A stretch of DNA of 21,397 nucleotides, from IMG/VR virus record IMGVR_UViG_3300031957_001582, positions 1 to 21,397 of that record; one strand, given 5' to 3'. The notes below the pieces were generated by a model. The model saw only the letters and a program-made list of their open reading frames with translations, ran no database searches and was not told the DNA's origin. Positions 3,959 through 15,141 of the stretch are shown piece by piece. How positions within the stretch are numbered: position 1 is the stretch's first letter; each line of letters begins with the position of its first letter. The DNA comes from a virus. The position numbers and the translations under genes were made by a program.

Positions 3959-5883
3959 TATTCTTCAAGTCCTATACTTCTAAGTAATTGAGTTCTATCA
4001 CTTTGAGCTCCGGGTCGGGGACCTGCCGTGTTATTGCCTTGGTTTGGTGATGGAGTGTTGGGTATGCCACCCATGGCTGCATTAGGCATTACCTCTGGTC
4101 TTACTCCATCCGATGTAGGGGCTCCCTGTTGTTGGGGTGCCGTTGGCTGCTGCATCTGTCCATATTGTTGCATAAACGTCATGCGTTGTGCAAGTTCTTG
4201 CATCTGCTTTTGTTCCTCAGCAACTTTTATTTCTTGCAAGTAATGTTGAGCCATCTGCTCATCACCACTCTTCATTGCTGCAGTGTAAAGCTGAACTAAC
4301 TGCATAATAGGTGATGATGTTCTTGCAATTTGTTCAAATATTCTTTGTCTTTCTAAATCTGCATCCTGCATTCTAAGTATTTTATCTCTAGCAAAGTCCA
4401 TCGAGACTAATGACTCACCACTTGCTGTAGGTTGAGTTGCCATCTGTGCAATAGAATATCTTTGCATATCGTCTTCTGGTAATGCTGGAAGTAATGTAAA
4501 CGTTAAATCGCCATGATTTTTAATATCATCAGGTGCAATCGGTCCATTAAAAGGCATTTTAGCGTAAGTTTTCCCAGAAACATTTAATGGTTTGTACGAT
4601 TTAGTTTCATACATCATAACTAAATGCTCAAAAGACATCTCTAATAAATTCTGTACTGCTGTTAATCTTGGGATAACTTTCTGTTCGATGTTAGTTCCAA
4701 GCTGCCTCATTGCATAACCAGAAATAGGTGCCTGCAATATTCCAAAAGCTTGAGGTGGCAATCCACCGTCTACTTCATCATCATTAATTGCACCAAGTAA
4801 TACGTCTGCATCTCTTGGTGATTGTGACAATGGCATAGGTTGCACATCTTCTTGGTTCTGAGTTGACACATTTATCTGTGACCCCTTCTTAGATGGGTTG
4901 TCTTCTAACGCCTTAGTTCCGTCTAATGAAGAAACTTTATAAGCTTGGTCTACTGCTCTTGCAGCAAGTGCCATCCTGTAAGAGAAAACTCTATTTTTAA
5001 ATTTAATTATATCCCTGTTAGCAGCGAAAATGGACTCAGAGAAGTCTCGAATTGGGTCTTCGATGTCAGCCATACTGTCAATCTGTCTCATTCCTGTATC
5101 AGATGTGGCAAGTAATGGTACGCTACCAACAGGAACAGAACATATCGGGAACATCATTGAGAATGTATCTGCAGGTTTCTTTGCGTACTTGTCATCAATA
5201 ATGACGTAATTCATATATTTAACTTTGCCATTTACAATCTGTCTTTCATAGCAATCGTAAATAAACTCAACCTCATGTCCGTCATCAAGCGTGACATCGT
5301 TGAATTTAAAATTTTTATAGGTGTCCCTAATTTCAATTCTTGTTTTAGTCATTCTGTATGCTGCAAATACTGGCTCATCTTCTCCGTACTGAACAACCAA
5401 ATGCCTAGGGTCTAAAGGTTTTATCTCAGCATAAGTCTCACCGTTTGCCTGTTTTCTAAGCAATGACCTTGCTGCTATCCTACCACCCCGTACCGTAGAG
5501 TACCAAGCTAGTTGTGATACAAGTAAAGGCTCACCTTTTCTTTGCAATCTCTTGTTTATTTGCCTGTGCATACCGATAACTAATCTTTCTAAATTATCGT
5601 TTGCAGCACGCTTCTGTTCGTCTGCTGCATCATTGTGCACTCTTACAACTTGCTCAGAACCAGAAATAAAACTTTCTATCTTGTCTGCTAATGTTCTAAG
5701 TGAGTTAGTTGTGTAAGCATCTTCTGGGTCGACACCTTCCTCTTCGTCTGGAACAAATTGAGTTAATCTCCATGAGGAATAATCCATATCCATTCTGTCA
5801 TGTAAAGGTTGGTCTTCGTCAAATAGAGTTTCTATTTTATTTAAAATTCCATTTACTACTTCGTCTTGAGTTTTTCTAGCCAT
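3958..5883 (-). CDS. Phage portal (head-tail connector) protein
   Basis: 641 residues. Portal proteins form the dodecameric ring at the head vertex through which DNA is packaged and ejected. The evidence is the size, the position immediately after terL with a one-base TAATG overlap, and a portal-like layout. The N-terminal part is acidic and helical (ETLFDEDQPLHDRMDMDYSSW). The middle is beta-rich with a clip/wing-like region (DPRHLVVQYGEDEPVFAAYR near residues 159-178). A helical stretch follows (MRQIDSMADIEDPIRDFSES), and the tail is disordered and Gln/Pro-rich (QQPTAPQQQGAP), as in podovirus-type connectors. The start has no clear Shine-Dalgarno of its own, consistent with translational coupling to terL. 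Confidence 0.85.
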   Translation of the reverse strand: MARKTQDEVVNGILNKIETLFDEDQPLHDRMDMDYSSWRLTQFVPDEEEGVDPEDAYTTNSLRTLADKIESFISGSEQVVRVHNDAADEQKRAANDNLERLVIGMHRQINKRLQRKGEPLLVSQLAWYSTVRGGRIAARSLLRKQANGETYAEIKPLDPRHLVVQYGEDEPVFAAYRMTKTRIEIRDTYKNFKFNDVTLDDGHEVEFIYDCYERQIVNGKVKYMNYVIIDDKYAKKPADTFSMMFPICSVPVGSVPLLATSDTGMRQIDSMADIEDPIRDFSESIFAANRDIIKFKNRVFSYRMALAARAVDQAYKVSSLDGTKALEDNPSKKGSQINVSTQNQEDVQPMPLSQSPRDADVLLGAINDDEVDGGLPPQAFGILQAPISGYAMRQLGTNIEQKVIPRLTAVQNLLEMSFEHLVMMYETKSYKPLNVSGKTYAKMPFNGPIAPDDIKNHGDLTFTLLPALPEDDMQRYSIAQMATQPTASGESLVSMDFARDKILRMQDADLERQRIFEQIARTSSPIMQLVQLYTAAMKSGDEQMAQHYLQEIKVAEEQKQMQELAQRMTFMQQYGQMQQPTAPQQQGAPTSDGVRPEVMPNAAMGGIPNTPSPNQGNNTAGPRPGAQSDRTQLLRSIGLEE

Positions 5884-7292
5884 TATCTAAACCTTGTTAC
5901 TGGGATTGTTTCCCTCTGATAGTTTTCATTGCCGGCATAACCAAACTGATTAACCATCAGGTAAGTCAATGCCTTTATAGCATGATTATACTTGTCTCTT
6001 GGAACATTTCCAACTACCCCACCTTCTCTATTCATCTGCCAACTGTAAACTCTAACCTGTCCATCAAAGGGATTTGGTGCTCCACCAAGCTCAGAAATTA
6101 GTCCTCTACACTTGGGGTCAATAATTAATCCGGGCTCCATCTCCAAAGGGTCAGGTTTTAACATGCTATTCATTCTTTCAATCCCGTCAATTATCTTTAC
6201 GGGCTGACTTTGCATAATAATATTTCCTTGTTTAAACCATATCTCAGTATTTGATGGCATTGCTCCGGCATGTGCATTCCCTGCAACGTCAATTACTCCA
6301 AACTTATTAGAATTATTCCACCAGAATCTTCTTTTAGCCAAATCAATTATGTCTGACACAACTAATTCTCTCTCATAAATTTCATCAAACACTTGAACTT
6401 GACCATCAATTATATGGCAAACCTCAACGGCATACGCACTCTCTGTCATCCTAGAATATCCGGGGTCTAAAGCTAAATAAACAATCTCATCGGGGTCATA
6501 TTCTACTTCCCTCACATGAATATTTACATTAAATGACGGATGAACTAATCCACTTGGAGGACTTGGTATTCCGGCGACACGTTCATTAAACCATTCATCG
6601 GAATGCTCAACCTTCATCTTTTCAATTTCGGGGTCATCCTCTCCCAACGGAAATATATGTGTATTAGTCCATGTCGGTAAAGAAAAACTTTTCGCACTCT
6701 CTAAATTTTGGATACCCGGAGACTGCCATGACGTAAATTGTTGGGGGTACCATCCCAGACTTCCCTCGAATGTTCCCTCTAAAAATACCCAACCACGCTT
6801 TTCTGCCACTCTCTCCATCAATCGCCAGTAACTTTCTTGGTCCAACTGCGAAGCCTCACATGCAACGATGCCCATTGGAGCTTCCATCGCAAGTTTCCTG
6901 TAGTCAGTCGCAGACTTAGTCTTTATTATCAACGGTTTTAAGTTCTTAGAGCCAACTGACACCTCAATATAACCGGGGTCTACTTGTCGTGTGGCACGTT
7001 TAATAATCCCTAACCTGTTAAATGCATCGCCCAGATAGTCAAACTCCCCTCTAGTCCTCTCATAATCTGCAGCAACTAGCCAATAGACACTGCCCGAAGC
7101 ATTATCAGGGTCCTCAACTATCTTAGCCATTATCTTTTCAAACATATACATAGCCCCAAGGTTAGACTTTCCTGCTCTTACGCCACCTGCGACTAATTTG
7201 AATCTAGCATCATCGTTAAGAATATCAAGCTGTGCTGAAGTAGGCTTGTATCCGATGGCTTGGAACAATGCATCTCGTTGTGTTTCTATCAT
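5883..7292 (-). CDS. terL: Terminase large subunit (packaging ATPase/nuclease)
   Basis: 469 residues, normal for the family. The N-terminal ATPase domain has Walker A GGVRAGKS at 36-43, a Walker-B-like strand GIVACEASQLD at 141-151 and the coupling segment EGTFEG at 172-177. The C-terminal RNase-H-like nuclease has the expected acidic residues in LALDPG (D276), GVIDVAG (D335) and PRDKYNHAIKAL (D433). The enzyme cuts concatemeric DNA and pumps it into the head through the portal. The ATG at 7292 fits the usual short lead before Walker A, but no Shine-Dalgarno precedes it on this strand. It follows the terS-like gene across a 410-base gap and overlaps the portal start by one base. Confidence 0.95.
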   Translation of the reverse strand: MIETQRDALFQAIGYKPTSAQLDILNDDARFKLVAGGVRAGKSNLGAMYMFEKIMAKIVEDPDNASGSVYWLVAADYERTRGEFDYLGDAFNRLGIIKRATRQVDPGYIEVSVGSKNLKPLIIKTKSATDYRKLAMEAPMGIVACEASQLDQESYWRLMERVAEKRGWVFLEGTFEGSLGWYPQQFTSWQSPGIQNLESAKSFSLPTWTNTHIFPLGEDDPEIEKMKVEHSDEWFNERVAGIPSPPSGLVHPSFNVNIHVREVEYDPDEIVYLALDPGYSRMTESAYAVEVCHIIDGQVQVFDEIYERELVVSDIIDLAKRRFWWNNSNKFGVIDVAGNAHAGAMPSNTEIWFKQGNIIMQSQPVKIIDGIERMNSMLKPDPLEMEPGLIIDPKCRGLISELGGAPNPFDGQVRVYSWQMNREGGVVGNVPRDKYNHAIKALTYLMVNQFGYAGNENYQRETIPVTRFR

Positions 7293-7360
7293 GAGTCACA
7301 TTCTAGCATAAAATTTACAGGAGGTAGTACCACATAGATACACAGACATTGACGACTAAG

Positions 7361-7447
7361 AACCACCCCCCCATCACCAAGTACCACCCAACACCCACCA
7401 CAACCACCACCACCACATCACCACCACCACCACCACCCAACCACCCC
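7361..7447. repeat. CCA/ACC-rich low-complexity tract
   Basis: About 87 bases are almost free of G on the plus strand and built from CCA/ACC units, with a seven-C run near the left end. The minus strand is therefore a GGT/GGTG run with many short G-tracts, which could favour a G-quadruplex or R-loop. It contrasts sharply with the low-GC surroundings. It lies 70 bases upstream of terL on the coding side, so it would be in the terL leader RNA if transcription starts at terS. Confidence 0.8.
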
Positions 7448-7616
7448 AAGCTCGAAATTTTTCTTGGCTGGGAAGGGTCAAGGAATGAGGCTGAGAGTCC
7501 CTAGAATCCCCGTAGCCGTGCCCTACTGTGTTAGGGGGTACTTTGGGGTCATTGGGTCTGTCTTCGGGTTACTTCCAAATAGGGGCATATTAACATTGTT
7601 TGGAATGTCCTAGGTC

Positions 7617-7694: not shown

Positions 7695-7713
7695 AAACGG
7701 CGTTACTCCGTTT
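7695..7713 (-). terminator. Hairpin over the terS-like stop codon
   Basis: AAACGG/CCGTTT arms (7695-7700 with 7708-7713) enclose a seven-base loop containing the TAA stop of the minus-strand terS-like gene. There is no U-run after it, so it is a weak or non-classical terminator. The stop-in-loop layout mirrors the hairpins of the plus-strand gene array. An ACGGCGT direct repeat (7685-7691, 7697-7703) overlaps it. Confidence 0.35.
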
Positions 7714-8215
7714 TATCTATTGGGGTTTTTGGCTCAGGGTTAGGAAGGTTAATATTAATTAAAGCCTGAATAAGGCTGTTAGCTTGCTCGTCTATGGTTG
7801 TTTGGTTCTTATGGTCTCCGTACCTATCAGGATATTTTTTAGACAGTAGCCATTGGCTATTTTTACTCTTAACAGCTTCATTGTCAGCAGTCGTTAATTC
7901 CGTTAATTGCATAGCCTCAAACTCTGTTACAGCCCCTGTAACAGTATCATGTAGCTTCAAGGTAAGTTGCTTGTATCTGTCACTAGGGTTCAGGTTCTTA
8001 GTATCTGTTACAGTAACAGTATCTATAGTATCAGTATCAGTATCAGAATCTAGGGTTACTCGGACTTTCTCGCCGAAACGTAACCAACCCATAGCCACAG
8101 ACTCAGAAACCCCACAGTGTCGAATTATGGCTGATGTAGGGTGTAGCCCTAGGCGTTCAATATCTTTCTTTATTAACTCAATCTTTTTATTATCTAACTG
8201 TATTTTTCTGCTCAT
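7703..8215 (-). CDS. terS: Probable terminase small subunit
   Basis: 170 residues. Small terminases bind the packaging start site and load the large subunit. The N-terminal 50 residues are a helix-turn-helix-like region (HPTSAIIRHCGVSESVAMGWLRFG). Near residue 122 is WLLSKKYPDRYGDHKNQTT, a segment typical of small terminases (a W-L-L-x-x-x-x-P-x-R-[WY]-G pattern). Between them lies a low-complexity Asp/Thr/Val repeat (DSDTDTDTIDTVTVTDT), encoded by repeated AGTATC units and palindromes. It is first in the left-going operon, diverging from the RNA and early genes. No strong Shine-Dalgarno is seen. The assignment rests on the HTH, the YPDRYG motif and synteny. Confidence 0.7.
   Translation of the reverse strand: MSRKIQLDNKKIELIKKDIERLGLHPTSAIIRHCGVSESVAMGWLRFGEKVRVTLDSDTDTDTIDTVTVTDTKNLNPSDRYKQLTLKLHDTVTGAVTEFEAMQLTELTTADNEAVKSKNSQWLLSKKYPDRYGDHKNQTTIDEQANSLIQALININLPNPEPKTPIDKTE
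7924..8052. repeat. Palindromes and AGTATC repeats inside terS-like gene
   Basis: Two palindromic sites share CTGTTAC/GTAACAG arms: 7924-7944 (CTGTTACAG, three-base spacer, CTGTAACAG) and 8005-8019 (CTGTTAC-A-GTAACAG). Between and beyond them TATC/AGTATC units recur, especially 8019-8045. In several headful phages such as P22 the pac site lies inside the small-terminase gene, so this is a candidate packaging-recognition region. Simple-repeat expansion in a linker is the alternative. Confidence 0.5.
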
Positions 8216-8288
8216 AGTCTTTTTTATTTTATCAGGTTGTATTTATATTTAAATGAAGGTGCCACATTATCCCTTATTATTTTATATG

Positions 8289-8316
8289 TTGACATAATGA
8301 TTTAAACCATGATAAG
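8289..8316 (+). promoter_or_regulatory. Sigma-70-like promoter for the large RNA and rightward genes
   Basis: A perfect TTGACA (8289-8294) is followed after 16 bases by GATAAG (8311-8316), a four-of-six match to TATAAT. It points right, into the gene-free region and the early genes. The expected start of transcription is about 8322-8324. It is the best consensus promoter noticed in the window. Confidence 0.5.
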
Positions 8317-8319
8317 CTC

Positions 8320-9108
8320 TAATCAGTGGTTGATGTTGGTAGGTTGTTAGACCCTCAGGGACTAAGCAAACTTAGAAGGCTTAGAAGTCAGGCTTGAACC
8401 CTGACAATTGGGGGCAACGTGAAACGGCAGGGGGGGGAAGTCATAGAAACCGAGTAATTCGGTCAAGTCGAATGAACTTCCTAGACTGTAGTGAATGCAA
8501 ACGTTTCCAAATAGTGGAGGAACTGAAAAGCTGAAAAAGTCAGGCTCATACTAGAGTTTGAAACAGGAAGCATTAAACAGGTTGTTATGGTTCGAGGTAG
8601 TCAAAAAATTGTCCGATACTTTAGGGCAATCATGCACAAGACACTTTGGAGAAAATAAAGCAAATCCCCTTGGGGAGCTTCAAAGCCCATAATCTCAGGT
8701 TAAGTAAACTTATTTTCTGAGTTTGCTAAATGTTACCAGATAGTTTTTTTTCAAATCCATTTACTAAATCACAAATTGTGTTGAATGAAAAAAAGCACTC
8801 TTATCAATAACTGAAAGTTAAAAAGAAATTACAACAATATTTAATCAATTGAGGTTGACTATTAATGTAATGGTTGCGAGATTGTCAAGACGCTATGAAT
8901 CCAAGGGTTCAGGCGTGGAGGTTTTCTAGCCTAAGTTATTGAAAAAAAATTACTAATTGAAAAACTGTGAAAGTCAGGAATGAAGCCGAAACTGTGGGAG
9001 GTGTATGGTTCTAAGTCGCAAGGCTTAGATTAAATTCAAAGTTTAATAAACCGAAACGAAAGAACCCACGACAACGCCAAGCAACCCCTCCAAAATTGGT
9101 TGCTTGGC
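8320..9108 (+). ncRNA. Large structured non-coding RNA candidate (about 0.8 kb, GOLLD/ROOL-like class possible)
   Basis: Nearly 800 bases lack a credible reading frame and sit behind a consensus-like promoter. The base composition differs from nearby genes, with GC-rich patches and conserved-looking purine tracts. Visible stems include CTAAG/CTTAG closed by CAAA (8362-8375); GTCAGG/CCTGAC (8387-8405); a two-level helix GGAAGT/ACTTCC (8436-8441 with 8476-8481) enclosing ACCGA/TCGGT (8449-8463); a seven-pair stem with a GCAA tetraloop of the GNRA type (9011-9028); and a perfect 11-pair hairpin at the 3' end (9076-9086 with 9098-9108). AAGTCAGG occurs three times (8385, 8537, 8971). GOLLD and ROOL RNAs are 0.5-0.9 kb phage-associated RNAs of this style; membership is a guess from size, context and structure, not from a match. 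A run of seven or eight G near 8430 is notable. Confidence 0.6.
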
Positions 9109-9124
9109 TTCGTCTTAGTAATAA
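9076..9124 (+). repeat. Boundary element copy 1 (hairpin + CGTCTTAGTAATAA)
   Basis: A perfect 11-pair stem GCCAAGCAACC/GGTTGCTTGGC (9076-9086, 9098-9108) also ends the large RNA. The core motif TTCGTCTTAGTAATAA follows at 9109-9124, then AAGGAGG and the ATG at 9153. Confidence 0.85.
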
Positions 9125-9152
9125 ATAAATTCATAATAAGGAGGAAATAATT

Positions 9153-9609: not shown

Positions 9610-9646
9610 GGGGGGCAACTAAGCCCCCCCATCGTTTTAGTAATAA
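9610..9646 (+). repeat. Boundary element copy 2
   Basis: Seven-pair stem GGGGGGC/GCCCCCC (9610-9616, 9623-9629), then ATCGTTTTAGTAATAA at 9631-9646, then AAGGAGGT ahead of the ATG at 9668. Confidence 0.85.
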
Positions 9647-9896: not shown

Positions 9897-9923
9897 CCCC
9901 CTGCATCATCGTCTTAGTAATAA
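9885..9923 (+). repeat. Boundary element copy 3
   Basis: Eight-pair stem ATGCAGGG/CCCTGCAT (9885-9892, 9899-9906) with the upstream gene's TAA in the six-base loop. The core ATCGTCTTAGTAATAA is at 9908-9923, then AAGGAGG and the ATG at 9948. Confidence 0.85.
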
Positions 9924-10283: not shown

Positions 10284-10314
10284 CCCCCCTGCTTTTCTAT
10301 CGTTTTAGTAATAA
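10272..10314 (+). repeat. Boundary element copy 4
   Basis: Eight-pair stem AAGCAGGG/CCCTGCTT (10272-10279, 10287-10294) with the upstream stop codon in the loop. The core ATCGTTTTAGTAATAA is at 10299-10314, followed by AAGGAGG and the ATG at 10338. Confidence 0.85.
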
Positions 10315-10706: not shown

Positions 10707-10743
10707 GAGGGGCTGAAAAGCCCCTCAATCGTTTTAGTAATAA
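10707..10743 (+). repeat. Boundary element copy 5 (GAAA tetraloop)
   Basis: Eight-pair stem GAGGGGCT/AGCCCCTC (10707-10714, 10719-10726) closed by a GAAA loop of the GNRA type. The core ATCGTTTTAGTAATAA is at 10728-10743, followed by AGGAGG and the ATG at 10772. Confidence 0.85.
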
Positions 10744-11002: not shown

Positions 11003-11042
11003 GGGGCATTTTAGCCCCTCAATTGTATCGTCTTAGTAATAA
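10999..11042 (+). repeat. Boundary element copy 6
   Basis: Nine-pair stem TTGAGGGGC/GCCCCTCAA (10999-11007, 11014-11022). The upstream TGA overlaps the left arm. The core ATCGTCTTAGTAATAA is at 11027-11042, then AAGGAGG and the ATG at 11073. Confidence 0.85.
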
Positions 11043-11432: not shown

Positions 11433-11456
11433 GCCCCTCAATCGTCTTAGTAATAA
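11419..11456 (+). repeat. Boundary element copy 7
   Basis: Eight-pair stem TGAGGGGC/GCCCCTCA (11419-11426, 11433-11440), with the upstream TAA in the loop. The core ATCGTCTTAGTAATAA is at 11441-11456, followed by AGGAGG and the ATG at 11483. Confidence 0.85.
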
Positions 11457-11671: not shown

Positions 11672-11714
11672 GTAAGGCTAAAACTAGCCTTACCTGATAT
11701 CGTCTTAGTAATTA
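11670..11714 (+). repeat. Boundary element copy 8
   Basis: Perfect 11-pair stem AGGTAAGGCTA/TAGCCTTACCT (11670-11680, 11685-11695) with an AAAC loop. The core ATCGTCTTAGTAATTA is at 11699-11714 with one late change, followed by AAGGAGG and the ATG at 11730. Confidence 0.85.
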
Positions 11715-11942: not shown

Positions 11943-11972
11943 ATCTCCTGCTCGATATCGTCTTAGTAATAA
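11932..11972 (+). repeat. Boundary element copy 9
   Basis: Eight-pair stem AGCAGGAG/CTCCTGCT (11932-11939, 11945-11952), upstream TAA in the loop. The core ATCGTCTTAGTAATAA is at 11957-11972, followed by AGGAGG and the ATG at 11996. Confidence 0.85.
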
Positions 11973-12301: not shown

Positions 12302-12331
12302 GCCTCTTCCTGTATATCGTTTTAGTAATAA
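12288..12331 (+). repeat. Boundary element copy 10
   Basis: Ten-pair stem AGGAAGAGGC/GCCTCTTCCT (12288-12297, 12302-12311) with the upstream TAA in the four-base loop. The core ATCGTTTTAGTAATAA is at 12316-12331, followed by AAGGAGGT and the TTG start at 12354. Confidence 0.85.
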
Positions 12332-12682: not shown

Positions 12683-12711
12683 ACGCCTCCTCAATATCGT
12701 TTTAGTAAAAC
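12671..12711 (+). repeat. Boundary element copy 11
   Basis: Eight-pair stem GAGGAGGC/GCCTCCTC (12671-12678, 12685-12692), upstream TAA in the loop. The core ATCGTTTTAGTAAAAC is at 12696-12711 with late changes, followed by AAGGAGG and the ATG at 12734. Confidence 0.85.
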
Positions 12712-13265: not shown

Positions 13266-13297
13266 ACCCCTGCTTCTCAATATCGTTTTAGTAGAGG
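13255..13297 (+). repeat. Boundary element copy 12
   Basis: Seven-pair stem AGCAGGG/CCCTGCT (13255-13261, 13268-13274), upstream TAA in the loop. The core ATCGTTTTAGTAGAGG is at 13282-13297 with a diverged end, followed by AAGGAGG and the ATG at 13317. Confidence 0.8.
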
Positions 13298-14548: not shown

Positions 14549-14603
14549 CATTCCCATTCCCGTTCCTAGGGTGGGAATAGGGAATGAAACGTATTAGTAA
14601 TAA
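14549..14603 (+). repeat. Boundary element copy 13
   Basis: Long interrupted stem: CATTCCC (14549-14555) pairs with GGGAATG (14580-14586), and TTCCC (14557-14561) with GGGAA (14573-14577). The core ACGTATTAGTAATAA is at 14589-14603 with A at the usually C/T position, followed by AGGAGG and the ATG at 14623. Confidence 0.8.
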
Positions 14604-14843: not shown

Positions 14844-14880
14844 CGGTGACCTGTAACAAGGTCACCGTGTCTTAGTAAAC
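14844..14880 (+). repeat. Boundary element copy 14 (no Shine-Dalgarno after it)
   Basis: Nine-pair stem CGGTGACCT/AGGTCACCG (14844-14852, 14859-14867), then GTGTCTTAGTAAAC. The ATG at 14887 follows within nine bases of TTAGTAA, with no AGGAGG between, unlike all other copies. Confidence 0.75.
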
Positions 14881-15124: not shown

Positions 15125-15141
15125 AACGTTTTAGTAAATAA
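15125..15141 (+). repeat. Boundary element copy 15 (no clear hairpin)
   Basis: The core appears as AACGTTTTAGTAAATAA ahead of AAAGGAG and the ATG at 15163. No stable stem is visible just upstream, so this copy shows the linear motif can occur without the hairpin. It is the last copy, at the border between the small-gene array and the replication genes. Confidence 0.7.

Follow-up and report, generated by a model that had tools for sequence, protein, structure and literature searches.

A conserved giant RNA with a hammerhead-like 3′ domain at the head of a phage early operon

Positions 8326-9114 of the phage DNA described here are occupied by a conserved, structured, non-coding RNA whose 5′ part is mosaic and whose 3′ part is conserved. 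As no Rfam family matches it, it represents a new class of giant phage RNA. At its 3′ end are the core, the arms and the site of a hammerhead-like element, all of them conserved, and sites resembling this terminus recur through the neighboring operon and co-occur with the RNA. From the arrangement of these features, we consider it rather probable that the RNA is made from its own promoter and that its 3′ domain acts as a hammerhead-like ribozyme, cutting after C9114 and thereby freeing the RNA from the early mRNA.

The locus, its promoter, and its relatives

The window, by which we mean the whole stretch of DNA that was analyzed, is an IMG/VR record of 21,397 bases consisting of a leftward packaging arm and a rightward arm. 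The former carries the large terminase (5883-7292; PHROG match) and an ORF at 7703-8215 that, judged by position only, is probably the small terminase. The region between these two genes (7300-7600) is C/A-rich and of low complexity, with a GC skew of -0.68, and translates as a Thr/Pro repeat. The rightward arm, from 9153, consists of small genes followed by a DnaC-like helicase loader, and it is on account of this content that we label it "early." The giant RNA lies between the divergent terminase genes and this early operon, in the longest gap of the whole window. A preliminary description of the DNA had remarked on some 0.8 kb without a gene here, and indeed 8216-9152 is free of plausible genes, the longest stop-to-stop frames being 49 codons on the + strand and 62 on the - strand.

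The promoter claimed ahead of the RNA is equally apparent from direct inspection of the + strand at 8289-8318, and it is present in all aligned relatives. It is composed of TTGACA (8289-8294), an 18-nt spacer, an extended -10 TG (8310-8311), and TAAGCT (8313-8318). This -10 matches TATAAT poorly, and a generic promoter scan of the window missed the element; the pattern TTGAC[AT]-N18-TG-N-TANNNT is nevertheless conserved across the relatives, and in one of them, L024, the promoter is TTGACA-N17-TATAAT, the -10 itself being TATAAT. With the conserved block beginning at 8326, we infer a transcription start at ~8325-8326 and an end at the candidate cleavage site C9114, giving a predicted + strand transcript of ~789 nt.

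A homologue search with the large terminase as query returned 42 loci. The carriers are uncultivated marine-type phages, with 8326-9121 conserved at the same locus in ~15 related IMG/VR contigs. Among relatives with terminase identity of at least 88% and enough upstream DNA, the junction consists of 0.7-1.1 kb without a conserved open frame; replacement by coding sequence, which had been named among the observations that would speak against an RNA, was not found in the homologues, which are non-coding at the locus. All relatives that extend far enough share the promoter and the 3′ domain (AAGTCAGGAATG ... CCGAAA ... terminal hairpin). The 5′ domains (8326-8940 on the + strand of the window), delimited by alignments and mosaic identity, come in at least four versions: type A in the window, L003, L004, L007, L013, and L014; type B in L011, L021, L043, L010, and L018; type C in L028, L009, L041, L025, L022, and L012; and type D in L024. 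Because L014 joins a type A 5′ end to a middle near type B, modules are exchanged, and the swapping of the 5′ domains suggests an interaction partner that differs from host to host or from phage to phage.

The L024 RNA has almost no blastn similarity to the others. When L018 and L024 were left out of its construction, a covariance model recovered L018 at E 8e-12; it also placed L024 as expected, although with an E of just 0.18. A broader search, for AAGTCAGGAATG...CAAAG, yielded 47 stretches, from which L018/L062 emerged as new family members; beyond family members, the stretches are coding sequence. Terminases of isolated phages are only 25-28% identical, a portal-sized protein search gave none, and a prophage/host search of genome contigs produced no matches. 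Distant terminase relatives have repeat-rich gaps of 0.5-1.4 kb at the same junction, in which the 3′-domain model finds nothing. Upstream of the large terminase in L145, L156, L149, L141, L157, and L153, the DNA is rich in repeats (TGTACATAA, GTTACA, and CTAGCTAG) and is possibly an origin.

The RNA reads from the + strand of the window. Its folding-energy z-score is -3.4 to -3.7 on that strand versus -1.9 on the other, and in most relatives only -0.5 to -2.4; since the values for the relatives are modest, it is covariation, not stability, that carries the case for a structured RNA. For the 3′ domain, RNAalifold predicts 39 pairs, of which 13 show double-sided changes. None of 500 shuffles reaches the observed covariation, and slid pairings drop to 22-47% paired. 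The hammerhead-like model discussed below has changes on both sides in 15 of its 47 pairs (0/500 shuffles), and 13/64 pairs of the middle domain are so changed in types A and B. The perfect 11-pair hairpin reported at the 3′ end is present at 9076-9086/9098-9108 and has undergone a compensatory A-U to G-C change in relatives. The GCAA hairpin also stands, with eight pairs, one of them G-U (9010-9017/9022-9029), in place of the seven that were described. The idea of a giant structured phage RNA is thus supported by a shared locus, a promoter, non-coding homologues, and helices that vary in compensatory fashion.

The hammerhead-like 3′ domain

The candidate catalytic strand comprises AUUACUAA-UUGAAAA at 8949 and GAAACGA at 9053, and the 3′ end of the RNA, from 9110, is UCGU-C^UUAGUAA. 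On the + strand, the 5′ strand of stem I, AUUACUAA (8949-8956), is complementary to UUAGUAAU at 9115-9122. It is followed by a hammerhead-like core, U3-UGA-A7-A8-A9 (8957-8963), whose 3-8 pair covaries, and by an elaborate domain (8964-9052) that replaces stem II and contains covarying helices, including the GCAA hairpin at 9010-9029. G12-A13-A14-A15.1 and the 5′ strand of stem III, ACGAA, occupy 9053-9060; the 11-pair hairpin (9076-9108) lies inside the stem III region; and 9109-9122 contains the 3′ strand of stem III, UUCGU, the predicted cleavage after C9114 (H17), and the 3′ strand of stem I. Neither this domain nor the matching sites of the early operon figured in the preliminary description.

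In the core, X3-UGA-N-X8-A, residues U4, G5, A6, and A9 are invariant. The 3-8 pair is GC in five of 10 distinct rows, CG in three, UA in one, and UG in one, and is never unpaired; the canonical CUGANGA core occurs in type C and L024. Natural U3-A8 covariation has been reported for hammerheads (PMC3088659). GAAA stands directly 5′ of the stem III arm in all of the RNAs, and A15.1-U16.1 is kept in the main clade and retained in L024 and L018 despite their altered arms. Stems I and III have 7-8 and 4-6 pairs, respectively, in the main clade and 5 each in L024. Both are nearly invariant, varying only in L024 and, for stem III, L018; as they hardly vary within the main clade, they give no covariation there. 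A descriptor scan finds one match in 15 of 16 RNAs, L024 included, and invariably at the 3′ end, the same descriptor matching anywhere in 4-15% of shuffles. The L024 match (TACTA/CUGAAGA..GAA/AACAA..UUGUU/A^UAGUA) has the layout of the window, but its arms differ and its register is offset by one position. L018 retains the core (U3-G8) and, in a register that we chose, a matching stem III, without a contiguous stem I.

The resemblance to hammerheads of type I (RF00163) and type III (RF00008) extends to the NUGANNA core with its 3-8 pair, GAAA, A15.1-U16.1, NUH, and stems I and III. Hammerheads with a stem II of a single pair, and core variants that are tolerated, have been reported (PMC3088659). 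In the present RNA, stem II beside the core amounts to one G-C pair at most, with no contiguous helix, and a conserved hairpin of ~13 nt separates A9 from the sole candidate G10.1-C11.1 pair. We know of no precedent for such an insertion between A9 and stem II. The Rfam hammerhead models give no match to the giant RNA at gathering score or at E<=5, and because of this, together with the intervening hairpin and the minimal stem II, we cannot classify the element as a hammerhead. It differs further from hammerheads in the multi-hairpin, covarying domain that stands in for stem II, in its position within a giant RNA, and in the many sites that come without a catalytic strand of their own. Single-sequence minimum-energy folds do not always favor the hammerhead-like structure. 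An alternative hammerhead (CUGAUGA-A-CUG..CAG-GAA-U, with a UGCA/UGCA stem III) was rejected, its stem I failing and its position 17 being G in L024; the UGCA/UGCA pairing covaries and is retained as a helix of the 3′ domain.

The mechanism that we propose would run as follows. A σ70-type promoter would drive the ~789-nt RNA, which would form the leading unit of the early (rightward) transcript. Stem I (8949-8956/9115-9122), the core (8957-8963), the elaborate domain that replaces stem II, GAAA (9053-9056), and stem III (9056-9060/9109-9113), which carries the 11-pair hairpin, would then form the ribozyme. Cutting after C9114 would detach the giant RNA from the early mRNA that follows it, and the latter would thereby gain a new 5′ end just ahead of its ribosome-binding site.

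Repeated sites in the early operon

The terminus of the RNA, a hairpin followed by UUCGUCUUAGUAA, is repeated along the operon. The window contains 11 exact copies of TCGTYTTAGTAA, each of them on the + strand and between 9110 and 12708; at up to two mismatches, the end motif has 21 matches where 5 are expected, and the early strand has 13-14 occurrences of the form GUH^UUAGUAA. Almost every early gene is followed by the motif, which in nearly all cases lies between a G/C-rich hairpin and a ribosome-binding site; its placement in relatives is the same. The intergenic sites, all on the + strand, are at 9632-9643 (TCGTTTTAGTAA, after a G/C hairpin), 9909-9920 (TCGTCTTAGTAA), 10300-10311, 10729-10740, 11028-11039, 11442-11453, 11700-11711, 11958-11969, 12317-12328, 12697-12708, 13283-13294 (TCGTTTTAGTAG), 14589-14600 (ACGTATTAGTAA, where position 17 is A), and 15126-15137 (ACGTTTTAGTAA), with a possible site at 14867-14878 (GTGTCTTAGTAA). 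Position 17 fits the hammerhead NUH rule (T71, C42, A10, G0 over 123 sites in 12 records, many of which are homologous and hence not 123 independent events).

Hammerheads are present in the early arms of two distant relatives with 48% terminase identity, L153 and L154. Those just upstream of the first early gene are of type III (Rfam E 1.6e-6 and 0.006, respectively), and a type I hammerhead, CUCUAA-CUGAUGAG-UCC-GUAA-GGA-CGAAA-CA...UGUC^UUAGAG, lies between genes (E 3.7e-4). Most of the intergenic examples terminate in GUC^UUAGAG; among the hammerheads of both types, most have a G/C hairpin within the stem III region. On the - strand these hammerheads are located at 1392-1469 and 2468-2522 in L153, with further cores near 340, 1130, and 2044, and at 2086-2141 in L154, which has three more cores; possibly there is one hammerhead per early junction. 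Such placement, shared with the giant RNA, is also reported for haloviruses HF1 and HF2, which have hammerheads at early-gene junctions (PMC3088659). L153 also has a leader of ~300-400 nt between a TTGACA promoter and the type III hammerhead that precedes its first early gene, and this may be another non-coding RNA.

Each intergenic motif of the window resembles the second half of a hammerhead, having the hairpin, GUH, and UUAGUAA. The first half (the UUAGUAA-complementary arm, NUGANNA, GAAA, and the UCGU-complementary arm) is absent from every one of them. A scan of the window and of the 37.7-kb L007 contig, each on both strands, revealed no second strand with arm, core, and GAAACGA beyond that of the giant RNA. 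Eight records each have one catalytic strand and 9-14 sites, which share a strand and never lie upstream of the RNA end, and among 2.9 million viral contigs the pattern of site plus ribosome-binding site is restricted to those carrying the giant RNA. Together with the cis hammerheads at such junctions in relatives, these observations raise the possibility, which we advance tentatively, that the giant RNA works in trans as a natural hammerhead. Having freed itself, it would process about a dozen early junctions (12-13 further sites) into separate mRNAs, taking the place of the cis hammerheads of the relatives. This extends the self-cleavage explanation and is not exclusive of it. Against it, the intergenic sites of L024 have shifted in concert to AUAGU[U/C]UUAGUAA, but the ribozyme arms follow the RNA's own 3′ end instead; since the sites match the arms less closely than that end does, trans cutting in L024 is not supported. 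Furthermore, the fifth base of arm III differs between types A/B and type C with no matching site change visible, arm III provides just 4-5 pairs, and no natural example was found in the literature searched. Between the giant RNA and the first conserved early gene, L024 has a short ORF, MICAFCKLLRSIKPEIIDADCVLCNTAD, which contains two CxxC pairs and is followed by a hairpin of its own and a site-like motif (UCGUACUAGUAA).

The concerted change of the L024 sites suggests some trans factor, as would be expected if the hairpin-UCGUYUUAGUAA modules, the one terminating the giant RNA among them, were protein endonuclease sites or terminators and the giant RNA a leader or antiterminator. The modules do combine a hairpin with a U-rich tail, and terminator-like sites number 11 versus 3.6 by chance. 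However, the fixed CG and UUAGUAA are not features of terminators, the U run is short and offset, and neither the absence of G at position 17 nor the matching core would be explained, so that we regard this account as unlikely.

Relation to known RNAs and significance

The preliminary description had left the choice between a known family (GOLLD, ROOL, OLE, or HEARO) and a new class. Membership in the former is not borne out. None of the four appears in a cmscan of all 4227 Rfam families at E<=5; a direct search with GOLLD (RF02032) gave no match in the window, L024, L018, or L022, and, in the L007 record, 7.9 bits spanning 19 positions against a gathering score of 150; and ROOL (RF03087) found nothing in the window, in a search that matched none of its controls either. 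The best weak Rfam matches (RAGATH-25, snoRNAs, caiA, and FuFi-1) fall far under cut-offs, and AGAUAGUCC as a group I intron element has no support from cmscan of L018. It is the option of a new class, without an Rfam match and with covarying helices, that has held.

GOLLD RNAs are often, although not always, found near tRNA genes. The GOLLD RNA is described as having a conserved 3′ and a variable 5′ domain (PMC12286853), and the two RNAs are alike in their size of ~800 nt, their phage home, and their conserved 3′ and swapped 5′ parts; ROOL shares with the window RNA its character as a large, ornate phage RNA. One might accordingly suppose an ornate RNA of the GOLLD/ROOL kind, built for RNA-only assembly, in which the likeness to a hammerhead is accidental or vestigial. 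We doubt this. Neither model matches significantly, the sequence is unlike that of GOLLD, a search of the 21-kb window found no tRNA, let alone a tRNA island, and the hammerhead-like 3′ domain, with its core covariation, the GUH rule, and the hammerheads of relatives, would be left unexplained. The theta ribozymes of gut phages (PMC10879173) are HDV-like and are comparable as phage ribozymes tied to phage RNA processing, but have another fold and are tied to tRNAs, not to early mRNA junctions. That the locus is a DNA element, such as a replication origin or regulatory region, is very improbable: it lies at a divergent junction where distant relatives have repeat-rich intergenic DNA, but its compensatory changes are strand-specific, its promoter is conserved, and it ends in a 3′ hairpin.

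The new class joins a handful of giant phage RNAs. Unlike GOLLD or ROOL, the RNA described here offers a predicted activity that can be tested, namely a cut after C9114. Were the repeated sites to serve as substrates as well, the RNA would represent a naturally occurring RNA enzyme with many mRNAs as targets, something that we have found described only for engineered hammerheads. Comparison with the relatives that possess cis hammerheads would then trace the transition from numerous self-cutting RNAs to a single, shared RNA enzyme.
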